This document shows positions 9,127-32,374 of a DNA stretch of 64,000 bases, piece by piece. The stretch covers positions 64,001 through 128,000 of the forward strand of contig JAAYAG010000060.1 of NCBI GenBank assembly GCA_012719495.1, read 5' to 3'. Origin of the DNA: Bacteroidales bacterium (GTDB lineage: Bacteria; Bacteroidota; Bacteroidia; Bacteroidales; Prolixibacteraceae). Position 1 is the stretch's first letter. Each line of letters begins with the position of its first letter. Position numbers and translations under genes: made by a program. The notes below the pieces were generated by a model, which searched no databases, was not told where the DNA came from, and saw nothing but the letters and a program-made list of their open reading frames with translations.

Positions 9127-10185
9127 ATGACCAATTTGAGCAGCAACATATCAAAAACGGAAAAAACACCACTTTTCGGCAAAACACTAAGCGAACTCTC
9201 TGAAATTGTAGCTGAACTCAAATTACCCGGTTTTACAGCCAAACAAATTGCCAGTTGGTTATATAATAAAGAAATTGAGTCGATTGATGAAATGACCAAT
9301 CTCTCGAAAAAAACGCGCGAGATATTGTCGGAAAAATATTGTGTTGGGCTTAGCAAACCGGTTAAAGTTCAGGTTAGTACCGATGGAACAAAAAAATACC
9401 TTTTTGCCACCCAACATGGAAAATATATTGAAACAGCCATGATCCCCGACAAAGAGAGAATCACCGTTTGTGTTTCATCCCAAGTTGGGTGCAAAATGGG
9501 CTGTTTATTTTGCATGACAGGCAAGCAAGGTTTTAATGGGCAACTTACATCTGGTGAGATAATTAATCAATTACGCATGATTGATGAATTCAAAAGCATA
9601 ACCAACATTGTTTACATGGGCATGGGCGAACCTTTCGATAATTTGGATCAAGTACTGAAAAGCATCAACATTCTAACTTCAGACTGGGGTTATGCCATGA
9701 GCCCAAGGCGCATAACTGTTTCATCTATAGGTATTATACCGTCATTAAAACGATTCTTGGTTGAAAGCAACTGTAATGTTGCCATTAGCCTCCACACCCC
9801 ATTCGAAAATGAGAGAGAGAAATTAATGCCTGTCCAGCTCGCCTACCCTATTGAAAAAGTTGTGGCCGAGATACGCTCTTTCGATTTTGATAATCAGCGA
9901 AAACTATCTTTCGAATATATCGTATTTGGTGGATTCAACGACACTCCTGCTCACGTTAAAGAACTTGCCCGCCTCTTAAATGGGGTAAAAAGTCATATTA
10001 ATTTGATCCGCTTCCACCCAATTCCCGGCACTCCATTAAATAAAACGAACGAAAAACGCTTGCTAGAATTCAAAGAAGAATTAAACAAAAAAGGGTTACT
10101 TACTACAATAAGGGCATCGCGTGGCCAAGACATCTATGCCGCTTGTGGCTTGTTAAGTACTAAAGGAATTACTACTGAAGCTTGA
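9127..10185 (+). CDS. rlmN: 23S rRNA (adenine(2503)-C2)/tRNA (adenine(37)-C2) methyltransferase RlmN
   Basis: About 352 residues from the ATG at 9127; an in-frame ATG at 9067 would add 20 residues without family character. The radical SAM motif CKMGCLFCMTGKQGF carries the CxxxCxxC Fe-S ligands, MGMGEPFDN is the GEP motif, and the C-terminal AACG holds the Cys that carries the transient methyl group. It adds a C2 methyl to A2503 of 23S rRNA and A37 of some tRNAs. It follows the ferredoxin reductase on the same strand. Confidence 0.93.
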   Translation: MTNLSSNISKTEKTPLFGKTLSELSEIVAELKLPGFTAKQIASWLYNKEIESIDEMTNLSKKTREILSEKYCVGLSKPVKVQVSTDGTKKYLFATQHGKYIETAMIPDKERITVCVSSQVGCKMGCLFCMTGKQGFNGQLTSGEIINQLRMIDEFKSITNIVYMGMGEPFDNLDQVLKSINILTSDWGYAMSPRRITVSSIGIIPSLKRFLVESNCNVAISLHTPFENEREKLMPVQLAYPIEKVVAEIRSFDFDNQRKLSFEYIVFGGFNDTPAHVKELARLLNGVKSHINLIRFHPIPGTPLNKTNEKRLLEFKEELNKKGLLTTIRASRGQDIYAACGLLSTKGITTEA

Positions 10186-10280
10186 CTTTCAGTTTCTTTA
10201 TTACTAAACACTTACATTGGTGCAAATATACAAGTAAACTTTTGGGCTTTCAATTATGTTTTTTTAAAAATCAAAATTGC

Positions 10281-10288
10281 TATTTTTG
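10281..10288 (+). promoter_or_regulatory. -7 box upstream of the MBL-fold gene
   Basis: TATTTTTG matches TAnnTTTG and lies 76 bases before the ATG at 10365, in an otherwise featureless AT-rich gap. Confidence 0.4.
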
Positions 10289-10364
10289 AATAGTTTGATA
10301 TGTAATGAACGATTGGTTTTCATTCCCGATTGTTCTTGAGTTTTTACCACAAAAAAAATAAAAC

Positions 10365-19901: not shown

Positions 19902-20966
19902 ATGGCAAAAAACTTTTCATTGATAGTAATGGCTCTAATAATTGTGTTCTCGGGTTGTAGTAATAAAAACAACTACTCGCGTAAACCAATTACAAATATA
20001 CTTATTACCCCGGCAAATAAAGTAGTTGAACAAGGAAATGATTTCACCGTTAAAACTCAAACTTCAGTTAAAAACGGTAAATTACAAAAGGTTGATTTAT
20101 TTATTGATAATGAATTAATTGAATCGACTGATAAAGCAGAAAATACAATTAAAGTTTCTACAAAAAAATATTTACCAGGTAACCATAGCATTAAAGCTGT
20201 TGCCTATAAAACCGATGGGATTTCATCAGCAAATACAGCCACATTCTTTATTCCTTCAGACATTGTTCCTGAAAAATTGAGTTTTAAAATTATTAAAACA
20301 TTAGCTCACGATCCCAGTTATTTCACTCAAGGTTTTGAGTTTGTTGATGAAGTGCTTTATGAAGGAACCGGAAACGAAGGAACCTCTTTCATTTTTTCTT
20401 ATATACCTGGAAAAAATAAAATTATTAAATCATTAAAGCTTGATAATAAGTATTTTGGAGAAGGAATTACAATATTGAATAACAAGATATACCAACTTAC
20501 CTACAAGCATAAAATCGGTTTTGTATATGATTTGAACACTTTTGAAAAAATTAATGAATTTTCATTTGTTTCAAATGAGGGCTGGGGTCTCTGTAACGAT
20601 GGTAAAAATCTTATTATGAGCGATGGATCTTCAAAAATTCATTATATCGATCCAATAAATTTCAGCATAATAAATAGTATCGAAGTGTGTGATAACCAGG
20701 GAACTATTGATTACATCAATGAACTGGAATATGTTGACGGTATTATTTATGCAAATATTTGGACCAAAAATACTATACTAAAAATAGATGCCAATACCGG
20801 TAAAGTATTAGCTTACATTAATATGGAACCCTTACTTGCCGAAGTAAAATCTTCTGCTTTTATCGATGTTTTAAATGGAATAGCATACAACAGAAAAGAA
20901 AATTTATTTTATATAACAGGAAAACTCTGGCCAAAAATGTTTGCAGTAAAATTTACAGCTAACTAA
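19902..20966 (+). CDS. Glutaminyl-peptide cyclotransferase (beta-propeller type), lipoprotein
   Basis: A 354-residue lipoprotein (lipobox VFSGCSN) with an Ig-like domain at about 30-125 and a plant/bacterial type glutaminyl cyclase beta-propeller behind it. Family landmarks are [56 protein letters not shown] and [16 protein letters not shown]. The enzyme converts N-terminal Gln to pyroglutamate, a modification seen on many Bacteroidota exported proteins after signal-peptide cleavage. The stop overlaps that of the convergent ruvB by four bases. Confidence 0.88.
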
Positions 20967-21991
20967 AAGAGCAAAAGGTTTTTATCTTCACCATATTTAA
21001 TTTTTCCAAGGTGTTGATAGGCAAATTCTGTAGCTTCTCGTCCTCGTGGAGTACGTTTAATAAATCCTTCTTTAATAAGAAAAGGTTCATATACTTCTTC
21101 AATTGTTCCAGATTCTTCTCCAACCGCGGTCGCAATTGTATTTAACCCCACTGGACCTCCCTTAAATTTATCTATAATTGTACTTAAAATTTTATTATCC
21201 ATTTCATCAAGGCCATGCTTGTCAATATTTAAGGCATCGAGGGCATATTGAGTAATAGCCATATCGATAATTCCAGATCCTTTTACTTGTGCAAAATCCC
21301 GCACACGTCGTAACAAAGCATTTAAAATACGGGGAGTTCCCCTACTTCTTCTCGATATTTCTATTGCTGCTAAGTCTTCAATATGAATATCAAGTATTTT
21401 AGCAGATCTTTTAATAATATTGTCGAGAATTTCTACATCGTAATATTCAAGATGTGAGTTAATTCCGAAACGAGCCCGTAGCGGACTTGTTAGTAAACCC
21501 GAGCGAGTAGTTGCCCCAATAAGTGTAAATGGATTTAATTCTATTTGAATAGACCGAGCACTAGGCCCTTTATCAATTAAAATATCGATTTTATAGTCTT
21601 CCATAGCTGAATACAAATATTCTTCAACTACGGGGCTTAAACGATGAATTTCGTCTATAAAAAGTACGTCGAAAGGTTCTAAATTGGTGAGTAAACCAGC
21701 AAGATCGGCAGGTTTATCAAGAACAGGACCAGAAGTTGTTTTAATTCCAACCCCCAATTCATTAGCAATAATATTTGATAGCGTTGTTTTTCCTAAACCT
21801 GGAGGACCATGCAATAAAACATGATCAAGAGCTTCGGAACGTTGTTTTGCAGCTAACACAAACACTTTAAGGTTTTCAATGATCTGTTTTTGACCACTAA
21901 AATCCTCAAATGACAAAGGCCTTAACCTTTTATCTATTTCTTTATCCGAATCAGAAAAGAAGTTTTCCCTTAAATCGTTTTGATGAGCCAT
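20963..21991 (-). CDS. ruvB: Holliday junction branch migration ATPase RuvB
   Basis: A 342-residue AAA+ protein. Walker A is [20 protein letters not shown], Walker B is [10 protein letters not shown], sensor 1 is [20 protein letters not shown], and the winged-helix end has [19 protein letters not shown]. It drives branch migration with RuvA; ruvA is not in the window. The gene is followed at its 3' side by the glutaminyl cyclase and preceded by the receiver-domain gene. Confidence 0.96.
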
Positions 21992-22021: not shown

Positions 22022-22411
22022 TTAAGCAATTATATTCAGTTCTTTAAAAATCTCATTAAGCCTGTTCATATCAAATGGCTTAGCCATATATTCATCCATA
22101 CCTGTAGCTAAACATTTGTCTCTGTCGTTATCTAAAGTATTGGCTGTGATAGCTATAACAGGGGTATGTTTTTTTGTAGGCATCTCGTTTTCATACTTCC
22201 TTATTTGGAAAGTTGCCTCTAAACCATCCATTACAGGCATCATTATATCCATTAGGATAACATCATAGTCCTTTTCCCTGTACTTGTTAACAGCTTCAAG
22301 TCCATTATTCGCAATATCAACTTCATGGTTGAATTTTTTCAAACTAAAAGTTGTAATACGTTGATTTAAAATATTATCCTCAACTAACAATATTGATAAA
22401 CTTTCTTTCAT
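22022..22411 (-). CDS. Stand-alone response-regulator receiver domain
   Basis: A 129-residue CheY-like receiver with no output domain. Acidic residues are in LLVEDN, the phospho-accepting Asp is in DVILMDIMMPVMDGLEATFQ, and the Thr and Lys of the switch are in AITANT and AKPFDM. The sequence type is that of receivers attached to hybrid histidine kinases, so a phosphorelay or protein-protein role is likely. No partner kinase is adjacent. It lies immediately left of the AT-rich gap and reads away from it. Confidence 0.85.
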   Translation of the reverse strand: MKESLSILLVEDNILNQRITTFSLKKFNHEVDIANNGLEAVNKYREKDYDVILMDIMMPVMDGLEATFQIRKYENEMPTKKHTPVIAITANTLDNDRDKCLATGMDEYMAKPFDMNRLNEIFKELNIIA

Positions 22412-22894
22412 AGCTTATAAATCTTCCTCTCTCTTATTAACAATGAGCCTTTGCAAATATATACTTTTTAAAGTTAAAAATTAATTTAAAATTTTGATGT
22501 ATTTAGCTTGTTGATTCTGTTGATAACTTATTTTTAAATTTTATCCCCATTTTCTTCAAACTTATATTAACAAAATTCTTTTTTTTTATTTTTTTGATAG
22601 CTAATATCTTATATTTTTTAATCAACAACTGTTAATATTTTTAAATTTATTTTTTTAATTCAATTAGCTGTTAATTTTGACTTCATATTTTTATAAGTAT
22701 TCTTTGCATTTTGTTTTTTGAAATAAGTTAAAAAGTTTCTCTTACAAATTAAATTTATTTTCTAAAATTTATTTGTTCAAAAATAGTAAGTATGTTTTAC
22801 CATTTTATTAACAGGTTAGAAACAATTTTATTTATTTGATGAACGTACATTTTTTTATGATGTTTCTTTTATTATTGTATGTTAATGTAAAGCT
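22412..22894. other. AT-rich divergent gap, candidate replication origin
   Basis: A 483-base gene-free stretch between divergent genes. One 60-base line (22561-22620) has 7 G+C, about 12%. It contains DnaA-box-like nonamers: TGTTGATAA (22518-22526), TTATCCCCA (22541-22549) and TTATTAACA (22805-22813), each one or two bases from TTATCCACA or TTATCAACA, plus TTAATCAACA at 22618. A TAATTTTG promoter-like box is at 22672-22679. Two parS-like sites lie 6 and 8 kb to the right. This supports an oriC but does not prove it; a long leader or simple promoter region is the alternative. Confidence 0.4.
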
Positions 22895-25800
22895 ATGAAA
22901 TCAGAATTAGATATTATTCTATATAAGTTAAATAAGTTTTCTAAAAAGTACTTTTTGAATCAGATTATTACTGGTCTAATGCTTTTTATTCTTGTTTCTT
23001 TTGTTTTTTGGTTAGTTTTCTTGGGGCTAGAATACTTTCTATACTTTAGTATTAATACTAAGTTTTATATAGTTACAAGCTTCTTTGTTTTCAGTATAAT
23101 TTCATTTATTTTTCTTATTTTTTTACCTTTTTTGAAGTATTGTAATGTTTTGAAAGGATTGTCAAAAGGAAAAATAAATCAACTTATTACTCAATCTTTT
23201 CCAGATGTTAAAGATAAATTGATCAATATTCTTGAACTTTCATCTTCTGATACAGATGATGTTTATTCAAAAGAGTTGATTGTTGCCAGTATAAACCAGA
23301 AAATTACAGATATAAAAATCTTTGATTTTAACAAAGCTATTTCTTTTAAAAGAAGCTTTAAATTTTTGTACTTGGTTTTTGGTGCTTTTGTTCTTTCATT
23401 TCTCTTTTATCTAGTTAATCCAAGGGCTTTTAATGATACATCATATCGACTTATTAAGTATCAAACAACTTTTGAGAAACCATTGCCATATAAGCTTACT
23501 ATTTTAAATGAAGATTTATCGGTAGGAAAAGGAGAAGATTTTACATTACATGTATCTATTGGTGGTTATAAAGAATATTCAGATGTCAATTTGATTATTT
23601 CCGGAAAATCTTTTTTAATGAAAAAAGATTCTACAAACTTTTATTCTTATAAATTCAATAATGTCAATAATGATTTGTTTTTTCAGATTTCAATAAATAA
23701 TTATAATTCAAGTATTTATCAGTTAATTGTTCATGATAAACCTATTTTGACAAATTTTTCTGTTCAACTAACTAAGCCTGGATATACTCTTCAAAAGAAT
23801 GAAAAAATAGACAATGTAACCGAATTTACTGTTCCTGCAGGAACTGTTGCTACTGTTGATTTTTCAACATTGAATACTGATTCTGTAATTTTGAGTGATG
23901 GCTCTTCTAAATTTTCATTAGATAATTCGAAAAAAAATATATTTATTTATAAAAAGCAAATAATTGATAATCAATATATAAATGTTAATTTGAAAAATTC
24001 AAATTTCTTTATTCCAGATTATTTAAAAATCAATTTTCAAGTTATTGAAGATCAATTTCCTTCTATTGGTGTTGTTAAATTGAACGATTCTATAGATTTT
24101 ACACGAATTTATTTTCGCGGTAATGTAACCGATGATTACGGTTTTAGTAAATTATTATTTCAAATCAAGATTGGCGATAAAATTGATTCTACCTTCATTC
24201 TAAATATATTACCAAATGTTTCTACTCAGGAATTCTTTTATGCTTTTGATTTTAATTTATATAAATCAATCACTAAAGATTTATCATATTTTTTTGAAAT
24301 ATATGATAATGATGAAGTTAAAGGACCTAAGTCTGCTGTAAGCGAAACTTTTTATTTTAGTTTTCCTGAAGCTAATGAAATTGCTGATTTCCAAGATAAA
24401 ATGTTTGACCAAATTGAGAATATTTTTCAAAATAGTATGAATTTTACTGATCAGTTGAAAAATAACCTTAACGAGGTTAAGAAAAAAATGCTCAATAGTG
24501 ATTTGACAGAGTGGGAGAGAAAGGAAATTCAAAAAAATATATCTTCAATTAAAGGCAATTTGGAAGAAGAATTGAAAAACCTGATTGAAAAAAATGATGA
24601 AATGAATAATTACATGAAGTCATTTACTGAACAAGATCAGCGTTTAATCGAAAAACAACAGCAAATCAATGATTTACTCGAAGATGTTTTTTCTGATGAA
24701 ATGAAAAAGTTGCTTGAAGATTTCAATAAAATGATGCAAGAGTTTAATAAAGACCAACTTAATAACTCAAAAGAAAAACTTGATCTATCGGTTGATGAAT
24801 TATCAAAGCAATTGGATAGAAATCTGGAATTGTTGAAAAGAATGAAAGTTGAACAGCAACTTGATCAGTTTTCAAAGAATATAGATAATTTAATAAAGAA
24901 ACAAGATTCTAATTTAAGCGAAGCTGATAAAAAGTTTGATACCAATAAATTGGCTTCTGATCAAGAAAAACAACAGAAAGATTTTGATCAATTAATGAAG
25001 GAATATAACGATATTAATAAGATTAATAACGAGTTAGAAGAACCAGTTAACTTATACGATTTATCTAATGAGAAAAATGAGATAAATAATGAGTTTTCTA
25101 AATCAAATGAGAATATTCGAAAAGAAAATAAGAAAAAAAGTCAGGAGTCTCTTAAAAAGAATAAAGAGAATCTTGATAATTTAAAGTTTATGATAGATCA
25201 GATGATTGAAGAAAATTTTGCTGAGCAAAACATGGAGAATCTTCAAGATTTGATTCAAATTCTTGACAACTTGGTGACATTTAGTTTTAATCAGGAAAAG
25301 TTAATTTCTTCAACAAATAAGCGAAATTTTAATGTGTTAGCACTTGTTGAACAGAAAAAATTAGTTAATGATTTTACTATTATCAACGATTCATTGTACT
25401 CATTATCCAAAAGAGAACCATCTATTAATTCTCAAATAAATAAGGAATTATTTGCAGTAAGAACTTATTTTGCAGGCATTGAAAATGATTTTGAGGATAA
25501 TGCAATTTCCCAAATAAATGTAAATCAACAGAAAGTACTTACTTCAGTTAATAATTTGTCGTTATTTCTTTCAGAAGTTATAAAAAAATTACAGGAGCAA
25601 CAGGCTAATTCTCAGCCTGGTAATAAAAATTGTAATAAACCTGGGAATAATCCTAATCCTAATAGTATGAAGTCATCTATGCAAAGTATGCAAAAGAGTT
25701 TGCAACAGCAGCTAGAGAAAATAATGCAAATGATGAAACAAGGTGACCAAGGTAAAGCAATGCAGAATGAATTAGGTAAGGCAATTTCTCAGCAAGAAGC

Positions 25801-26221
25801 TATGCATAATATGCTTCAGCAAATGATGAATCAAGGTCAGGTTGGGAGCAATGCTTATGAAACTTTAAAACAAGCCGATCAGCTTTTGGATAAAGTAAGA
25901 GAAGATATTTTGAGAAATAATATTTCTAATTCAACTATTGAACGTCAGAAACAAATTATGACGCGATTGCTGGAGGCAGAAAAGGCTGAAAATGAAAGAG
26001 ATTTAGAAGAAAAAAGAAAATCGGACAGTGCAAAGGAACAATTCCTTAATAAACCTAATTCAGAGTTAGATGATGAACGTTTTCAAATTAACTATGAAGA
26101 GAAATTGTTAAAAAATAAATTAATTTTAAATACTTTTTATCAGTCTAAATTTCAAAAATATATGTTTACGCTTGATAGTATTAATGGAAAAGTTAATCAG
26201 CATAGCATCCTCGAAAAATAA
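22895..26221 (+). CDS. DUF4175 family membrane protein with long coiled coil
   Basis: An 1108-residue protein. Two membrane helices lie at about 23-47 and 54-77 and a third at about 150-170. An extracytoplasmic region with Ig-like character follows (to about 490), then a long Lys/Glu/Asn/Gln-rich coiled coil (about 500-870) and a Gln/Met-rich tail (about 900-1010). The layout matches the DUF4175 family of Bacteroidota, whose function is not known. Codon use is extremely A/T-rich. First gene of an operon with an ATPase (overlapping), ybeY, mnmG, ade and uvrC. Confidence 0.75.
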   Translation: MKSELDIILYKLNKFSKKYFLNQIITGLMLFILVSFVFWLVFLGLEYFLYFSINTKFYIVTSFFVFSIISFIFLIFLPFLKYCNVLKGLSKGKINQLITQSFPDVKDKLINILELSSSDTDDVYSKELIVASINQKITDIKIFDFNKAISFKRSFKFLYLVFGAFVLSFLFYLVNPRAFNDTSYRLIKYQTTFEKPLPYKLTILNEDLSVGKGEDFTLHVSIGGYKEYSDVNLIISGKSFLMKKDSTNFYSYKFNNVNNDLFFQISINNYNSSIYQLIVHDKPILTNFSVQLTKPGYTLQKNEKIDNVTEFTVPAGTVATVDFSTLNTDSVILSDGSSKFSLDNSKKNIFIYKKQIIDNQYINVNLKNSNFFIPDYLKINFQVIEDQFPSIGVVKLNDSIDFTRIYFRGNVTDDYGFSKLLFQIKIGDKIDSTFILNILPNVSTQEFFYAFDFNLYKSITKDLSYFFEIYDNDEVKGPKSAVSETFYFSFPEANEIADFQDKMFDQIENIFQNSMNFTDQLKNNLNEVKKKMLNSDLTEWERKEIQKNISSIKGNLEEELKNLIEKNDEMNNYMKSFTEQDQRLIEKQQQINDLLEDVFSDEMKKLLEDFNKMMQEFNKDQLNNSKEKLDLSVDELSKQLDRNLELLKRMKVEQQLDQFSKNIDNLIKKQDSNLSEADKKFDTNKLASDQEKQQKDFDQLMKEYNDINKINNELEEPVNLYDLSNEKNEINNEFSKSNENIRKENKKKSQESLKKNKENLDNLKFMIDQMIEENFAEQNMENLQDLIQILDNLVTFSFNQEKLISSTNKRNFNVLALVEQKKLVNDFTIINDSLYSLSKREPSINSQINKELFAVRTYFAGIENDFEDNAISQINVNQQKVLTSVNNLSLFLSEVIKKLQEQQANSQPGNKNCNKPGNNPNPNSMKSSMQSMQKSLQQQLEKIMQMMKQGDQGKAMQNELGKAISQQEAMHNMLQQMMNQGQVGSNAYETLKQADQLLDKVREDILRNNISNSTIERQKQIMTRLLEAEKAENERDLEEKRKSDSAKEQFLNKPNSELDDERFQINYEEKLLKNKLILNTFYQSKFQKYMFTLDSINGKVNQHSILEK

Positions 26222-27043: not shown

Positions 27044-28918
27044 ATGAAGTTTTCGTATGATGTAATTGTTGTAGGTGCAGGACATGCAGGGTGTGAAGCA
27101 GCAATGACAGCAGCTACTATGGGTTCAAAGGTTTTACTTATAACCATGGATATGACTAAGATAGCACAAATGTCATGTAATCCAGCTATGGGTGGCATAG
27201 CTAAAGGTCAGATTTTACGCGAAATTGATGCCTTAGGAGGATATGCTGGTATTGTCACTGATGAATCAACAATTCAATTCAGAATGTTAAACCGTTCGAA
27301 AGGTCCAGCCATGTGGAGCCCTAGGGCACAATGTGACCGAATGGTTTTTACAAAAGTTTGGAGACAGTATCTCGAACAGAATTTGAATGTAGATTTATGG
27401 CAAGGTATTGTTACGCAACTTATGTTTGATGAAAATAGAGTCACTGGTGTAATTTCAGATCTAGGAGTCCATTTTTATTCAAAAACAGTAATTTTAACAA
27501 ATGGTACTTTTTTAAATGGTCTAATGCATGTTGGCCAAAATAAATTTCATGGAGGTAGAATTTCTGAGCCCGAATCCAAGTTTATTAGTGATCAACTTCA
27601 TAATATAGGTTTTACTGTTGGACGAATGAAAACAGGTACCCCTGTTAGAATTGATGGTAGAAGCGTTGATTTCAGTAAGTTAACTGAGCAAGAAGGAGAC
27701 AATGATTTTTATAAATTTTCTTTTCTTCCTGAGATTTCGTCAAAACTAAAACGCTTGACCTGTTATATTACTTATACGAATCTCAACACTCATAAAATTC
27801 TTGAAAAAGGCTTTGATGAGTCTCCAATGTTCGATGGAACCATTCAGAGCGTAGGGCCAAGATATTGTCCAAGTATTGAGACTAAATTGAAAACTTTTGC
27901 CGATAAAGATAAACATCAATTATTTTTAGAACCAGAAGGAGAAAACACTATAGAATTTTATCTTAACGGCTTTTCATCTTCTTTACCCTGGGAAGTTCAA
28001 TTAGAAGGATTGAGGAGTGTCGAAGGTTTTGAAAATGTTAAAATTTTTAGGCCTGGTTATGCTATCGAATATGACTATTTCGATCCAACCCAATTAAAAC
28101 ATACTCTTGAGACAAAGCTTATTGAAAACTTATTTTTTGCAGGACAAATTAATGGCACTACTGGGTATGAAGAAGCAGGAGCTCAAGGTTTAATTGCTGG
28201 CATTAATGCTCACAATAAATGTTTAGGCAAAGAAGATTTTACTTTAGCCAGAGATGAAGCTTATATTGGGGTTTTAATCGACGATTTGGTTACTAAAGGT
28301 GTTGATGAACCATATAGAATGTTTACTTCCAGAGCTGAATATAGAATTTTGTTACGTCAAGACAATGCTGATGAACGATTAACGCAGAAAGGTTTTGATA
28401 TTGGTTTAGCTTCACAACAAAGGGTTGATTTATTGAATGAAAAGATTACAAAGCGAAACAAATTAATAGATTTTGTAAAAAATTTTAGCGTTAAACCAGA
28501 TCAAATTAATGATTTTCTTATTTCAAAAGATTCTGCTATTTTAAAACAAGGTGTCAAATTAATTGATATTATTTTACGACCTCAAGTTGGCTTAAATGAA
28601 TTAATTGATGAGGTTAATGAATTGAAAGAATTTGTTGCTTCTTTTGGACAACGTAAGGAAGAGATTTTACATTCCGCTGAAATTCTAATCAAATATTCTG
28701 GTTATATTGAACGAGAAAAGTTAATTGCTGATAAATTTAAAAGATTGGATGATATTGTAATAGAAGATCGTTTTGATTATTTGTCGATAAATACTCTTTC
28801 GACTGAAGCACGAATGAAACTTAATTCAATACAGCCAAAAACTATTGGACAGGCAAGCAGAATTCCTGGTGTTTCTCCATCTGATATTAGTATACTTTTA
28901 GTAATGTTGGGACGATAG
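27044..28918 (+). CDS. mnmG: tRNA uridine-5-carboxymethylaminomethyl modification enzyme MnmG
   Basis: A 624-residue FAD protein with the dinucleotide-binding motif VVGAGHAGCEAA at residue 8. Family signatures are MSCNPAMGGIAKGQILREID, PRYCPSIETK and INGTTGYEEAGAQGLIAG. The C-terminal helical domain ends GVSPSDISILLVMLG, which binds MnmE and tRNA. With MnmE it modifies the wobble uridine of tRNAs. Also called GidA; it is often close to chromosome origins. A parS-like palindrome lies right at its stop codon. Confidence 0.97.
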   Translation: MKFSYDVIVVGAGHAGCEAAMTAATMGSKVLLITMDMTKIAQMSCNPAMGGIAKGQILREIDALGGYAGIVTDESTIQFRMLNRSKGPAMWSPRAQCDRMVFTKVWRQYLEQNLNVDLWQGIVTQLMFDENRVTGVISDLGVHFYSKTVILTNGTFLNGLMHVGQNKFHGGRISEPESKFISDQLHNIGFTVGRMKTGTPVRIDGRSVDFSKLTEQEGDNDFYKFSFLPEISSKLKRLTCYITYTNLNTHKILEKGFDESPMFDGTIQSVGPRYCPSIETKLKTFADKDKHQLFLEPEGENTIEFYLNGFSSSLPWEVQLEGLRSVEGFENVKIFRPGYAIEYDYFDPTQLKHTLETKLIENLFFAGQINGTTGYEEAGAQGLIAGINAHNKCLGKEDFTLARDEAYIGVLIDDLVTKGVDEPYRMFTSRAEYRILLRQDNADERLTQKGFDIGLASQQRVDLLNEKITKRNKLIDFVKNFSVKPDQINDFLISKDSAILKQGVKLIDIILRPQVGLNELIDEVNELKEFVASFGQRKEEILHSAEILIKYSGYIEREKLIADKFKRLDDIVIEDRFDYLSINTLSTEARMKLNSIQPKTIGQASRIPGVSPSDISILLVMLGR

Positions 28919-28932
28919 TTTCACGTGGAACA
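28917..28932. promoter_or_regulatory. parS-like ParB-binding site
   Basis: The 16-mer AGTTTCACGTGGAACA, between the mnmG stop and the ade start, reads TGTTCCACGTGAAACT on the other strand. It matches 15 of 16 positions of the B. subtilis-type parS consensus TGTTnCACGTGAAACA. parS sites bind ParB and cluster near replication origins. Confidence 0.75.
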
Positions 28933-30562: not shown

Positions 30563-32374
30563 ATGCATTATAACTCTCATCTCAAAAATTTAGTTTCTGC
30601 CTTACCGCACGAACCAGGAATTTATCAATATTTTGATAAAGATGGGACGATTATTTATATTGGTAAAGCTAAAGACTTAAAAAAACGAGTTTCTTCATAT
30701 TTTACAAAAACTCATGATAATAGGAAAACTGCAATTCTTGTTCGTAATATTATTGATATTAAAACTATCGTTGTAGAAACAGAACAAGATGCATTAATCC
30801 TTGAAAATAATCTAATCAAAAAGTATAAGCCAAGGTACAATATCATGCTTAAAGATGATAAAACGTATCCTTGGATTTGTATAAAGAACGAATCTTTTCC
30901 ACGCGTTTTTCAAACAAGACGTATTGAAAGAGATGGCTCTTTATATTTTGGTCCATTCACATCAGTAATGTTGGTTAGAACTTTGTTAGAGTTGTTTCGG
31001 CAGTCTTATAAGTTGAGAAACTGTAACTTACAGCTATCAGAAGCCAATGTTTCACGTGGAAAATTTAAAGTCTGTTTACAGTATCATATTGGCAATTGTC
31101 TTGGGCCTTGTGAAAATTATCAAAATGAAGAGTCGTATAATAAATCTATTGAAGAAATAAAAAGCATTCTTAAAGGGAATATTGGTTCGGTAATTTCAGG
31201 GTTGAAAACAGCCATGAAAAAATATTCAGAGGAGTTAAACTTTGAAGAGGCACAGCAGATAAAATTACGTCTTGAAATATTGCAAAACTATCAGGCAAAG
31301 TCAACTGTGGTAAGTCCGACAATTCAAAATGTAGATGTTTATTCTTTTTTACGCGACGATCAAACCATTTATATCAATTTTTTAAAAGTTGTTAGAGGAA
31401 GTGTAATTCATTCTTTTACTCTCGAAATTAAAGAAAAAGTAGAGGAAAATGATGAAGACATTTTACTTTTTGGTATAACTGAAATACGGCAGCGAATCTT
31501 CAGTAATGCAACAGAATTCATCGTTCCATTTAAACCTTCTTTTCAACTTGAAGGGATAAAGTTCACCATACCGCAACGAGGAGATAAAAAAATGTTGCTC
31601 GAATTGTCGGAGAAAAACGTGAAATATTATGTGCTTGAAACGAAAAAAAATAACTCATTACTAAAAAATGAAAAGCCATCCGAACGGATCCTTAAAACAG
31701 CTCAAAAGGATTTAGGCTTAAAAGAACTTCCTTTCCACATCGAATGTTTCGATAATAGCAATTTACAAGGAACTAATCCTGTAGCATCATGTGTTGTTTT
31801 TAAAAATGCAAAACCAGCAAAAAAGGAATATCGACATTTTAATATTAAAACAGTTGACGGGCCAAACGATTTTGCTTCGATGGAAGAAATTGTATTCCGC
31901 CGTTACCGTCGCCTGCTTGACGAAAATCAACATTTGCCAAATCTTATTATAGTTGATGGTGGAAAAGGACAATTGGGTTCAGCGATGAATGCGTTAGAGA
32001 AACTGGGACTTAGAGGGAAGTTACCTATTATAGGCATAGCTAAACGGCTCGAAGAAATTTATTACCCTGGAGATCCTGTACCGTTATATATCGATAAAAC
32101 TTCTGAAACATTAAAACTTATTCAGCAAATGCGCGACGAAGCCCATCGTTTTGGAATTACTCATCATAGAGATAAAAGATCGAAGGCAATGATCGTTTCA
32201 GAACTTGACCAAATAAAAGGAGTAGGAGAGAAGACAAAAGAACTTTTATTGCGTCAGTACAAATCAATTGAAAACATTAGAACGGCAGATTTTGTTGAAG
32301 TTGAAAATCTAATTGGGAAATCTAAAGCGGTGCTTTTGAAAGAGTATTTTTCAAAAGAGATTAGTAAATTATAA
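30563..32374 (+). CDS. uvrC: Excinuclease ABC subunit C
   Basis: A 603-residue nucleotide excision repair nuclease. The GIY-YIG domain is at residues 13-95 (EPGIYQYF and IIYIGKAKDLKKRVSSYF). The UVR motif near 205 contains FEEAQQIKLRLEIL. The RNase H-like second nuclease has IECFDNSNLQGT and LIIVDGGKGQLGSA, and a helix-hairpin-helix pair closes the protein (LDQIKGVGEKTKELLLRQYK). It contains a second parS-like site within its coding sequence. Last gene of the operon. Confidence 0.96.
   Translation: MHYNSHLKNLVSALPHEPGIYQYFDKDGTIIYIGKAKDLKKRVSSYFTKTHDNRKTAILVRNIIDIKTIVVETEQDALILENNLIKKYKPRYNIMLKDDKTYPWICIKNESFPRVFQTRRIERDGSLYFGPFTSVMLVRTLLELFRQSYKLRNCNLQLSEANVSRGKFKVCLQYHIGNCLGPCENYQNEESYNKSIEEIKSILKGNIGSVISGLKTAMKKYSEELNFEEAQQIKLRLEILQNYQAKSTVVSPTIQNVDVYSFLRDDQTIYINFLKVVRGSVIHSFTLEIKEKVEENDEDILLFGITEIRQRIFSNATEFIVPFKPSFQLEGIKFTIPQRGDKKMLLELSEKNVKYYVLETKKNNSLLKNEKPSERILKTAQKDLGLKELPFHIECFDNSNLQGTNPVASCVVFKNAKPAKKEYRHFNIKTVDGPNDFASMEEIVFRRYRRLLDENQHLPNLIIVDGGKGQLGSAMNALEKLGLRGKLPIIGIAKRLEEIYYPGDPVPLYIDKTSETLKLIQQMRDEAHRFGITHHRDKRSKAMIVSELDQIKGVGEKTKELLLRQYKSIENIRTADFVEVENLIGKSKAVLLKEYFSKEISKL
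31048..31063. promoter_or_regulatory. Second parS-like site, inside uvrC
   Basis: TGTTTCACGTGGAAAA matches TGTTTCACGTGAAACA at 14 of 16 positions. It lies 2.1 kb from the mnmG/ade site and in coding sequence, as many chromosomal parS sites do. Confidence 0.5.

Follow-up and report, generated by a model that had tools for sequence, protein, structure and literature searches.

In B. subtilis and other bacteria, the basal unwinding system consists of DnaA-trios, a short spacer and tandem DnaA boxes, and the trio consensus, 3-prime-GAT-5-prime, is most common beside the box, according to the portions of the reports at hand (PMC8287927, PMC6669920). The available sections of other reports give boxes for several lineages: the core TTCAC in Epsilonproteobacteria (PMC5043019), AAACCTACCACC in Thermotoga, which diverges along with residues of DnaA domain IV (PMC6669920), TTTTCCACA in Cyanobacteria (PMC10225481), and, on the linear chromosome of Cyanothece, two predicted boxes, one being TTATCAACA (PMC4674748). 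For Bacteroidetes, the excerpted source describes oriC as 'commonly located far from the dnaA gene' and reports an oriC of Prevotella intermedia predicted by Ori-Finder from E. coli boxes with one mismatch (PMC4755523). Because of this distance from dnaA, as given in the same excerpts, and because textbook boxes are few in the genomes examined here, the placement of origins in Bacteroidota leans on GC skew.

Here, we analyzed a 64-kb stretch of DNA (the window) from a Prolixibacteraceae-like member of Bacteroidota, in which an earlier note had proposed the gap at 22412–22894 as a candidate chromosomal replication origin. This proposal is now supported by three observations: the gap carries an ordered array of boxes that is conserved in relatives, its profile match stands clear of the next one in its own genome, and the corresponding sites of relatives lie at chromosome-scale skew minima. 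Judging from the sequence, we estimate a probability of roughly 0.93 that the gap is a chromosomal origin working through a DnaA array, with DnaA predicted to bind its boxes.

The gap spans 483 nt between a minus-strand ORF (22022–22411) on its left and a plus-strand ORF (22895–26221) on its right. As originally described, it is unusually AT-rich and separates divergent units: its G+C content is 0.18, and the line with 12% G+C, counted on the sequence, corresponds to 22600–22659. The 483-nt stretch with the lowest G+C content of the window (0.166) begins at 22455 and overlaps the gap, which stands out by its composition and not by its length, ranking fifth in length among the gaps of a hand-picked ORF set. 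The cumulative G-C curve of the window reaches its lowest point at 22629, inside the gap, with a skew of −0.062 to the left and +0.047 to the right. The reported orientation of genes, mostly minus on the left and mostly plus on the right, held only in part. In the hand-picked set, 60% of the coding bases on the left are on the minus strand and 60% of those on the right are on the plus strand, but the latter figure combines 100% up to 37.8 kb with 35% beyond. The dnaA gene, which had not been seen in the first reading, is carried by another contig of the same assembly. No Rfam family was detected in the window at gathering scores. The features of the locus are listed in Table 1.

Table 1. Features in and around the proposed origin, in window coordinates.
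Feature	Position	Strand	Basis or remark
ruvB	20963..21991	-	Homology search
Stand-alone receiver domain protein, 129 aa	22022..22411	-	PF00072; flanks origin candidate
Intergenic region proposed to bear the origin (oriC candidate)	22412..22894	.	Low G+C, cumulative G-C minimum, profile match
Variant box TTATTAACA, exact, upstream of core	22434..22442	+	Motif scan
Candidate DNA unwinding element	22456..22505	.	Second least stable 50-nt stretch of window, nearest-neighbour dG -47.3; role by analogy
Core matched by origin profile R1	22499..22678	+	Profile search; model positions 3-206 of 209
Box-proximal DnaA-trio-like triplet TAG	22504..22506	+	Sequence and held-out rows; putative role
Tandem variant DnaA box 1 (TGTTGATTC), abuts box 2	22509..22517	-	Sequence and alignment
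Variant DnaA box 2, exact TTATCAACA on minus strand	22518..22526	-	Motif scan
Near-canonical box TTATCCCCA, 1 mismatch to TTATCCACA	22541..22549	+	Motif scan
Variant box ATATTAACA, 1 mismatch, conserved alignment position	22564..22572	+	Alignment and scan
Inverted variant box pair TAATCAACA / TGTTAATAT, conserved as TNAACAnnTGTTAATA	22619..22638	.	Alignment and scan
Weak variant box TGTTAATTT, 2 mismatches, conserved alignment position	22669..22677	-	Alignment
Variant box TTATTAACA, exact, outside core profile	22805..22813	+	Motif scan
1108-aa protein, no Pfam or NCBIfam match at E 0.001	22895..26221	+	Profile search; flanks origin candidate
mnmG (gidA)	27044..28918	+	Homology search
parS-like site at mnmG stop	28917..28932	+	2 mismatches to TGTTTCACGTGAAACA
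parS-like site inside uvrC	31048..31063	+	2 mismatches to TGTTTCACGTGAAACA

The consensus of the boxes is TTATNAACA, which reads TGTTNATAA on the opposite strand, and not TTATNCACA; this shifted consensus was overlooked in the first reading of the sequence, which had listed near-DnaA-box nonamers at 22518, 22541, 22618 and 22805. The first two are within one mismatch of the canonical TTATCCACA, as is a site at 22374 inside the receiver gene, whereas the last two are not and fit the variant box instead (22619 with one mismatch, 22805 exactly). Dinucleotide shuffling yields 0.10 near-canonical boxes per shuffle, versus the two seen in the gap. As for the suggested check for clustered boxes, exact copies of TTATCCACA are neither enriched nor clustered in the own genome (29, versus 42 for the reversed pattern). 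The variant TTATNAACA is clustered both in the gap, with three copies where the other top stretches listed have at most two per 500 nt, and in the gaps of relatives.

As the own assembly is a 4.19-Mb draft in 151 contigs, of which contig 46 contributes the window as its bases 64001–128000, the skew and box tests were performed on relatives. The 1108-aa protein was searched in 61 genomes, including the own genome, 36 of which gave a match, and 30 loci were retained. In 21 of these, the receiver gene adjoins the gap, and removal of a near-duplicate (L013, of L011) left 20 non-redundant gaps, again including our own; they measure 413–615 nt and have a G+C content of 0.17–0.30. The motif was obtained from word counts compared to shuffles, an expectation-maximisation search having collapsed to poly-A/T. 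The variant TTATNAACA is present in 32 copies, in 19 of the 20 gaps, compared to 2.6 in 100 dinucleotide shuffles (sd 1.6, maximum 9), and TTATCCACA with at most one mismatch was found 11 times in the same 20 gaps versus 2.9 by shuffling. The order of the boxes is kept across the 20 aligned gap cores, and the core measures 206–211 nt in 15 of them. Since the motif had been chosen after inspection of these same gaps, independent tests were sought.

A sequence-only profile of 209 positions (R1) was built from the gap-core alignment (A1), with our own gap as one of the 20 training rows. R1 matched this gap in its own genome with an E value of 1e-9, which is that of a training row, followed by a next match at 0.044; the gap scored 3.3e-10 in a second sequence set. 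Within the order, R1 matched 160 of 295 genomes (E ≤ 0.01), mostly once per genome and with four training genomes among the 160, and 135 gave no match; class-wide, 75 of 296 genomes matched and 221 did not. The stricter filters used in large profile searches lose weak matches, and real divergence likely adds to the missing ones. In G011, a complete genome placed in the same family, the best match (0.0135) was located away from the sampled skew minimum. When an HMM of A1 was searched against 119 stretches of 20 kb (2.38 Mb) at E ≤ 1, only seven stretches, all at skew minima, matched, and a profile made from the reversed alignment gave zero matches in the same sequences. Six of these seven stretches had been chosen because R1 matched there, and the independent part of this result thus consists of G026 and the 112 empty stretches. 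These data also bear on the idea that the gap is simple AT-rich sequence with near-boxes that arose by chance and have no function. A G+C content of 0.18 indeed makes AT-rich nonamers common, and canonical boxes are few, but the composition-preserving shuffles, with 2.6 variant boxes where 32 are seen, and the silent reversed profile reduce this idea to a negligible likelihood.

The reading of the gap as an origin was to be checked by the position of the GC-skew switch, and this check, run on relatives, came out in its favor. The site was found at a minus-to-plus switch of the sampled skew in all eight complete relatives that carry the orthologous element and were sampled (10–20 stretches each, G288 being noisy), in addition to the minimum seen in the gap of the window. 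Seven of these relatives are outside the training set and one, G029, is inside it. The order-wide search had matched seven single-contig genomes, six of which, from other families, were sampled (all except G317). In these six families, with ten 20-kb stretches each, most samples before the site had a negative skew and most of those after it a positive one, and in five of the six genomes the opposite switch was found roughly halfway around the chromosome. G288 was irregular: two of its nine samples had the wrong sign, and a long run of weakly positive values came next. One sample of G208 was near zero. At the orthologous region, the skew also went from minus to plus in G026, whose site is outside the training set and whose plus arm includes some slightly negative samples, and in G029, with one wrong-sign sample and unequal arms. 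In G029, the cumulative minimum fell inside the element; in G261 and G288, it was no more than 110 nt from the midpoint of the site. Local skew minima were 0.6–6.2 kb from the site in G226, G026 (1.1 kb), G159, G305, and G208. At a smaller scale, the skew changed sign at 36 of 39 profile matches, two of the 41 loci being too short and therefore dropped; this was not counted as evidence because 122 of 142 ordinary divergent gaps switch as well.

This last control is compatible with another explanation, namely that the conserved TTAACA/TGTTAA array is an operator and promoter region for the divergent receiver and 1108-aa genes, and that its proximity to the origin is incidental. The gap does sit between divergent genes, which is enough to produce a local switch, and the inverted TTAACA pairs resemble operators. 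However, the neighbors of the element differ among genomes. The nadA gene adjoins it in 9 of 11 loci checked, and in six of these nine the far side carries rpiB or a gene for a SpoU methylase; a transposase gene and a LUD-domain gene flank it in G026; and other neighbors are rpiB, an Omp85-domain gene, and, in our own window, the receiver gene. Because the flanking genes change while the element persists, it does not appear to be the operator of one gene. Moreover, the element is mostly single per genome and positioned at chromosome-scale skew minima, where it has already been seen without the receiver and 1108-aa genes beside it, and the operator explanation retains only a slim chance.

With the gap read as an origin, the receiver protein encoded beside it, as in 21 of the 30 loci, could link signalling to replication. 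A relative of the 138-aa HATPase_c_2 gene follows the 1108-aa gene in 25 of 30 loci; in the window, the order after the 1108-aa gene is a histidine-kinase-like ATPase gene, ybeY, mnmG, an adenine deaminase gene, and uvrC. In G026 (L068 10854–11753), an IS1595-type transposase gene separates the receiver gene from the element. In G029 and G026, a great distance separates dnaA from the origin, and the position of this gene was discarded as a clue. In B. fragilis Q1F2, R1 gave a match with an E value of 6.3e-11 at 4,492,985 (L297 1501–1696), between nadA and a SpoU-type methylase gene, and this site is likely the oriC of that chromosome, as judged from the profile. As for the Ori-Finder oriC of Prevotella intermedia, a skew switch and a location far from dnaA are found here; unlike that prediction, as given in the excerpted source, our element has a shifted conserved box, and the profile locates it without skew (PMC4755523).

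The presence of mnmG to the right of the gap was confirmed, and the two parS-like sites reported on the same side hold up: each has one mismatch to one of four parS forms, and a scan with at most three mismatches to TGTTTCACGTGAAACA gave three matches versus 0.53 by chance. In 80 mnmG loci (L217–L296), the best 80 of 590 confirmed Bacteroidota matches, parS with at most one mismatch was found in 71, and it was within 200 nt of either mnmG end in 68 (109 of 129 sites overall). None of 112 non-origin 20-kb stretches contained a parS, and it was also missing from seven of eight origin-centered 20-kb stretches of relatives, G029 alone having one, just behind mnmG. The true origin might instead be a neighbor at most some tens of kb away, such as the mnmG/parS locus, with the gap itself only close to the origin; the parS sites at mnmG in most of these best 80 of 590 loci and the local skew minima up to 6.2 kb off in some relatives speak for it. 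Against it, the boxes are arrayed in the gap itself, and the cumulative minimum is inside the gap in the window, inside the element in G029, and at most 110 nt from the midpoint in G261 and G288. A profile search of 59 of the 80 mnmG loci gave only eight matches at E ≤ 0.1, two of them below 0.001, so that the profile site is usually more than 8 kb from mnmG, and in B. fragilis the two are about 100 kb apart. The chance of such a displaced origin is slimmer still than that of an operator.

The boxes of the proposed origin also differ from those of other lineages. In the 41 profile-match regions, TGT[T]NATAA was counted 86 times versus 11 for the canonical TGT[G]NATAA, a descriptive comparison since the profile used to select these regions itself includes the motif. 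The flanking sequences of these loci, each of up to 2.4 kb and together several-fold longer, contain 39 and 9, respectively. The base-contacting residues of E. coli DnaA are 399, 423, 432–435, and 438–439, according to the available text of the sources (PMC5043019, PMC7561715). Residues were compared through an alignment to structure 1j1v, and a longer set of DnaA sequences was lined up by eye on a shared motif. The E. coli numbering on 1j1v was counted from the chain end. Compared to E. coli, Arg399 is kept, and Pro423, Arg432, and Thr435 are replaced by Ala, Lys, and Ala. Of 17 DnaA sequences, counting our own, 16 have Ala at position 435 and the remaining one, from G317, has Ser; none has Pro at 423, and 14 have Lys at 432. 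Ser, more rarely Ala, at position 435 is also reported for Epsilon- and Deltaproteobacteria in the accessible part of one study (PMC5043019). As in Epsilonproteobacteria, Thermotoga, and Cyanobacteria, the origin boxes are lineage-specific; unlike in their boxes, position 6 is A, and DnaA residues 423, 432, and 435 are changed. We hypothesize that the change at box position 6 (C6 to A) is tied to that of DnaA Thr435 to Ala, which would represent a change in DnaA–DNA recognition.

It is probable that much of Bacteroidota shares one origin design, in which the boxes were rewritten to TTATNAACA along with the base-reading residues of DnaA (Pro423 to Ala or Ser, Thr435 nearly always to Ala, Arg432 mostly to Lys), and the origin moved between neighbors (mostly nadA, the receiver gene here) with its internal order kept and parS remaining tied to mnmG. 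Searches with canonical boxes would under-detect such origins in this phylum, a main one of the gut, and the 209-position profile would find them even in drafts; standard searches may miss them because their boxes are one letter off the textbook form. No report of a TTATNAACA box or of an origin profile in Bacteroidota was found among the titles and abstract openings listed from the open-access literature. A sequence signature that is usable on drafts could serve to locate origins, to check assemblies, and to anchor read-depth estimates of replication rate.

The element is laid out as an AT-rich stretch, a trio-like triplet, a short spacer, tandem boxes, and further boxes. The start of the element was analyzed in 32 held-out rows, two secondary minus-strand matches having been removed from 34; L130 and L137 were left out of the locus profile search as copies of the sites in L157 and L197. 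These rows read ATRATAATAK-SC-TGTTAAT, with a less conserved second box about 10 nt later. In the TGTT core of box 1, the G and the two following T are invariant (32/32), and 29 rows have the first T. A basal unwinding system is defined by three or more DnaA-trios no further than 16 bp from a DnaA box; the trio region of the held-out rows has the consensus ATRATAATAK, but TGA and TAT variants occur, and in the window, TAG is the sole intact trio and the other triplets are degenerate. A candidate AT-rich unwinding element directly to the left of the boxes can be recognized at 22456–22505 from base composition and predicted stability, and the least stable 100-nt stretch of the window is 22561–22660. 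This arrangement resembles the incC basal unwinding system of B. subtilis, as described in the available sections, in its trio-like triplets, short spacer, tandem boxes 0–3 nt apart, further boxes, and AT-rich flank (PMC6669920, PMC8287927). It differs from it in that the box is TTATNAACA and not TTATCCACA, the origin is far from dnaA, and one triplet is recognizable in the window.

Because the order of the element resembles that of the basal unwinding system, we propose that DnaA, presumably bound to some eight nonamers of the consensus TTATNAACA arrayed in a fixed order, would nucleate on the abutting tandem pair (22509–22526) and that the oligomer would extend leftwards over the spacer and the trio-like bases (22504–22508) into 22456–22505. 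DnaA may open this stretch for helicase loading. The downstream boxes at 22564, 22619/22630, 22669, and 22805 would hold more DnaA and could set the timing of initiation, and forks would depart both ways from the gap. ParB acting on the parS-like sites 6–9 kb to the right of the gap would then segregate the new origins.

Two other arrays were observed in relatives. A cluster of eight exact TTATCCACA in G011 (1120699–1121401) was considered as a canonical oriC and rejected, as it is a tandem repeat and no minus-to-plus switch was seen there. It is made of units of 75–85 nt at 9702–10338 (L092 9699–10401), with the eight exact copies distributed over the array and its edges, and might titrate DnaA or be unrelated. 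In G160 (L121 1501–1798), overlapping profile matches were found on both strands, with E values of 2.9e-16 and 6.1e-8, suggesting a near-symmetric double origin array.
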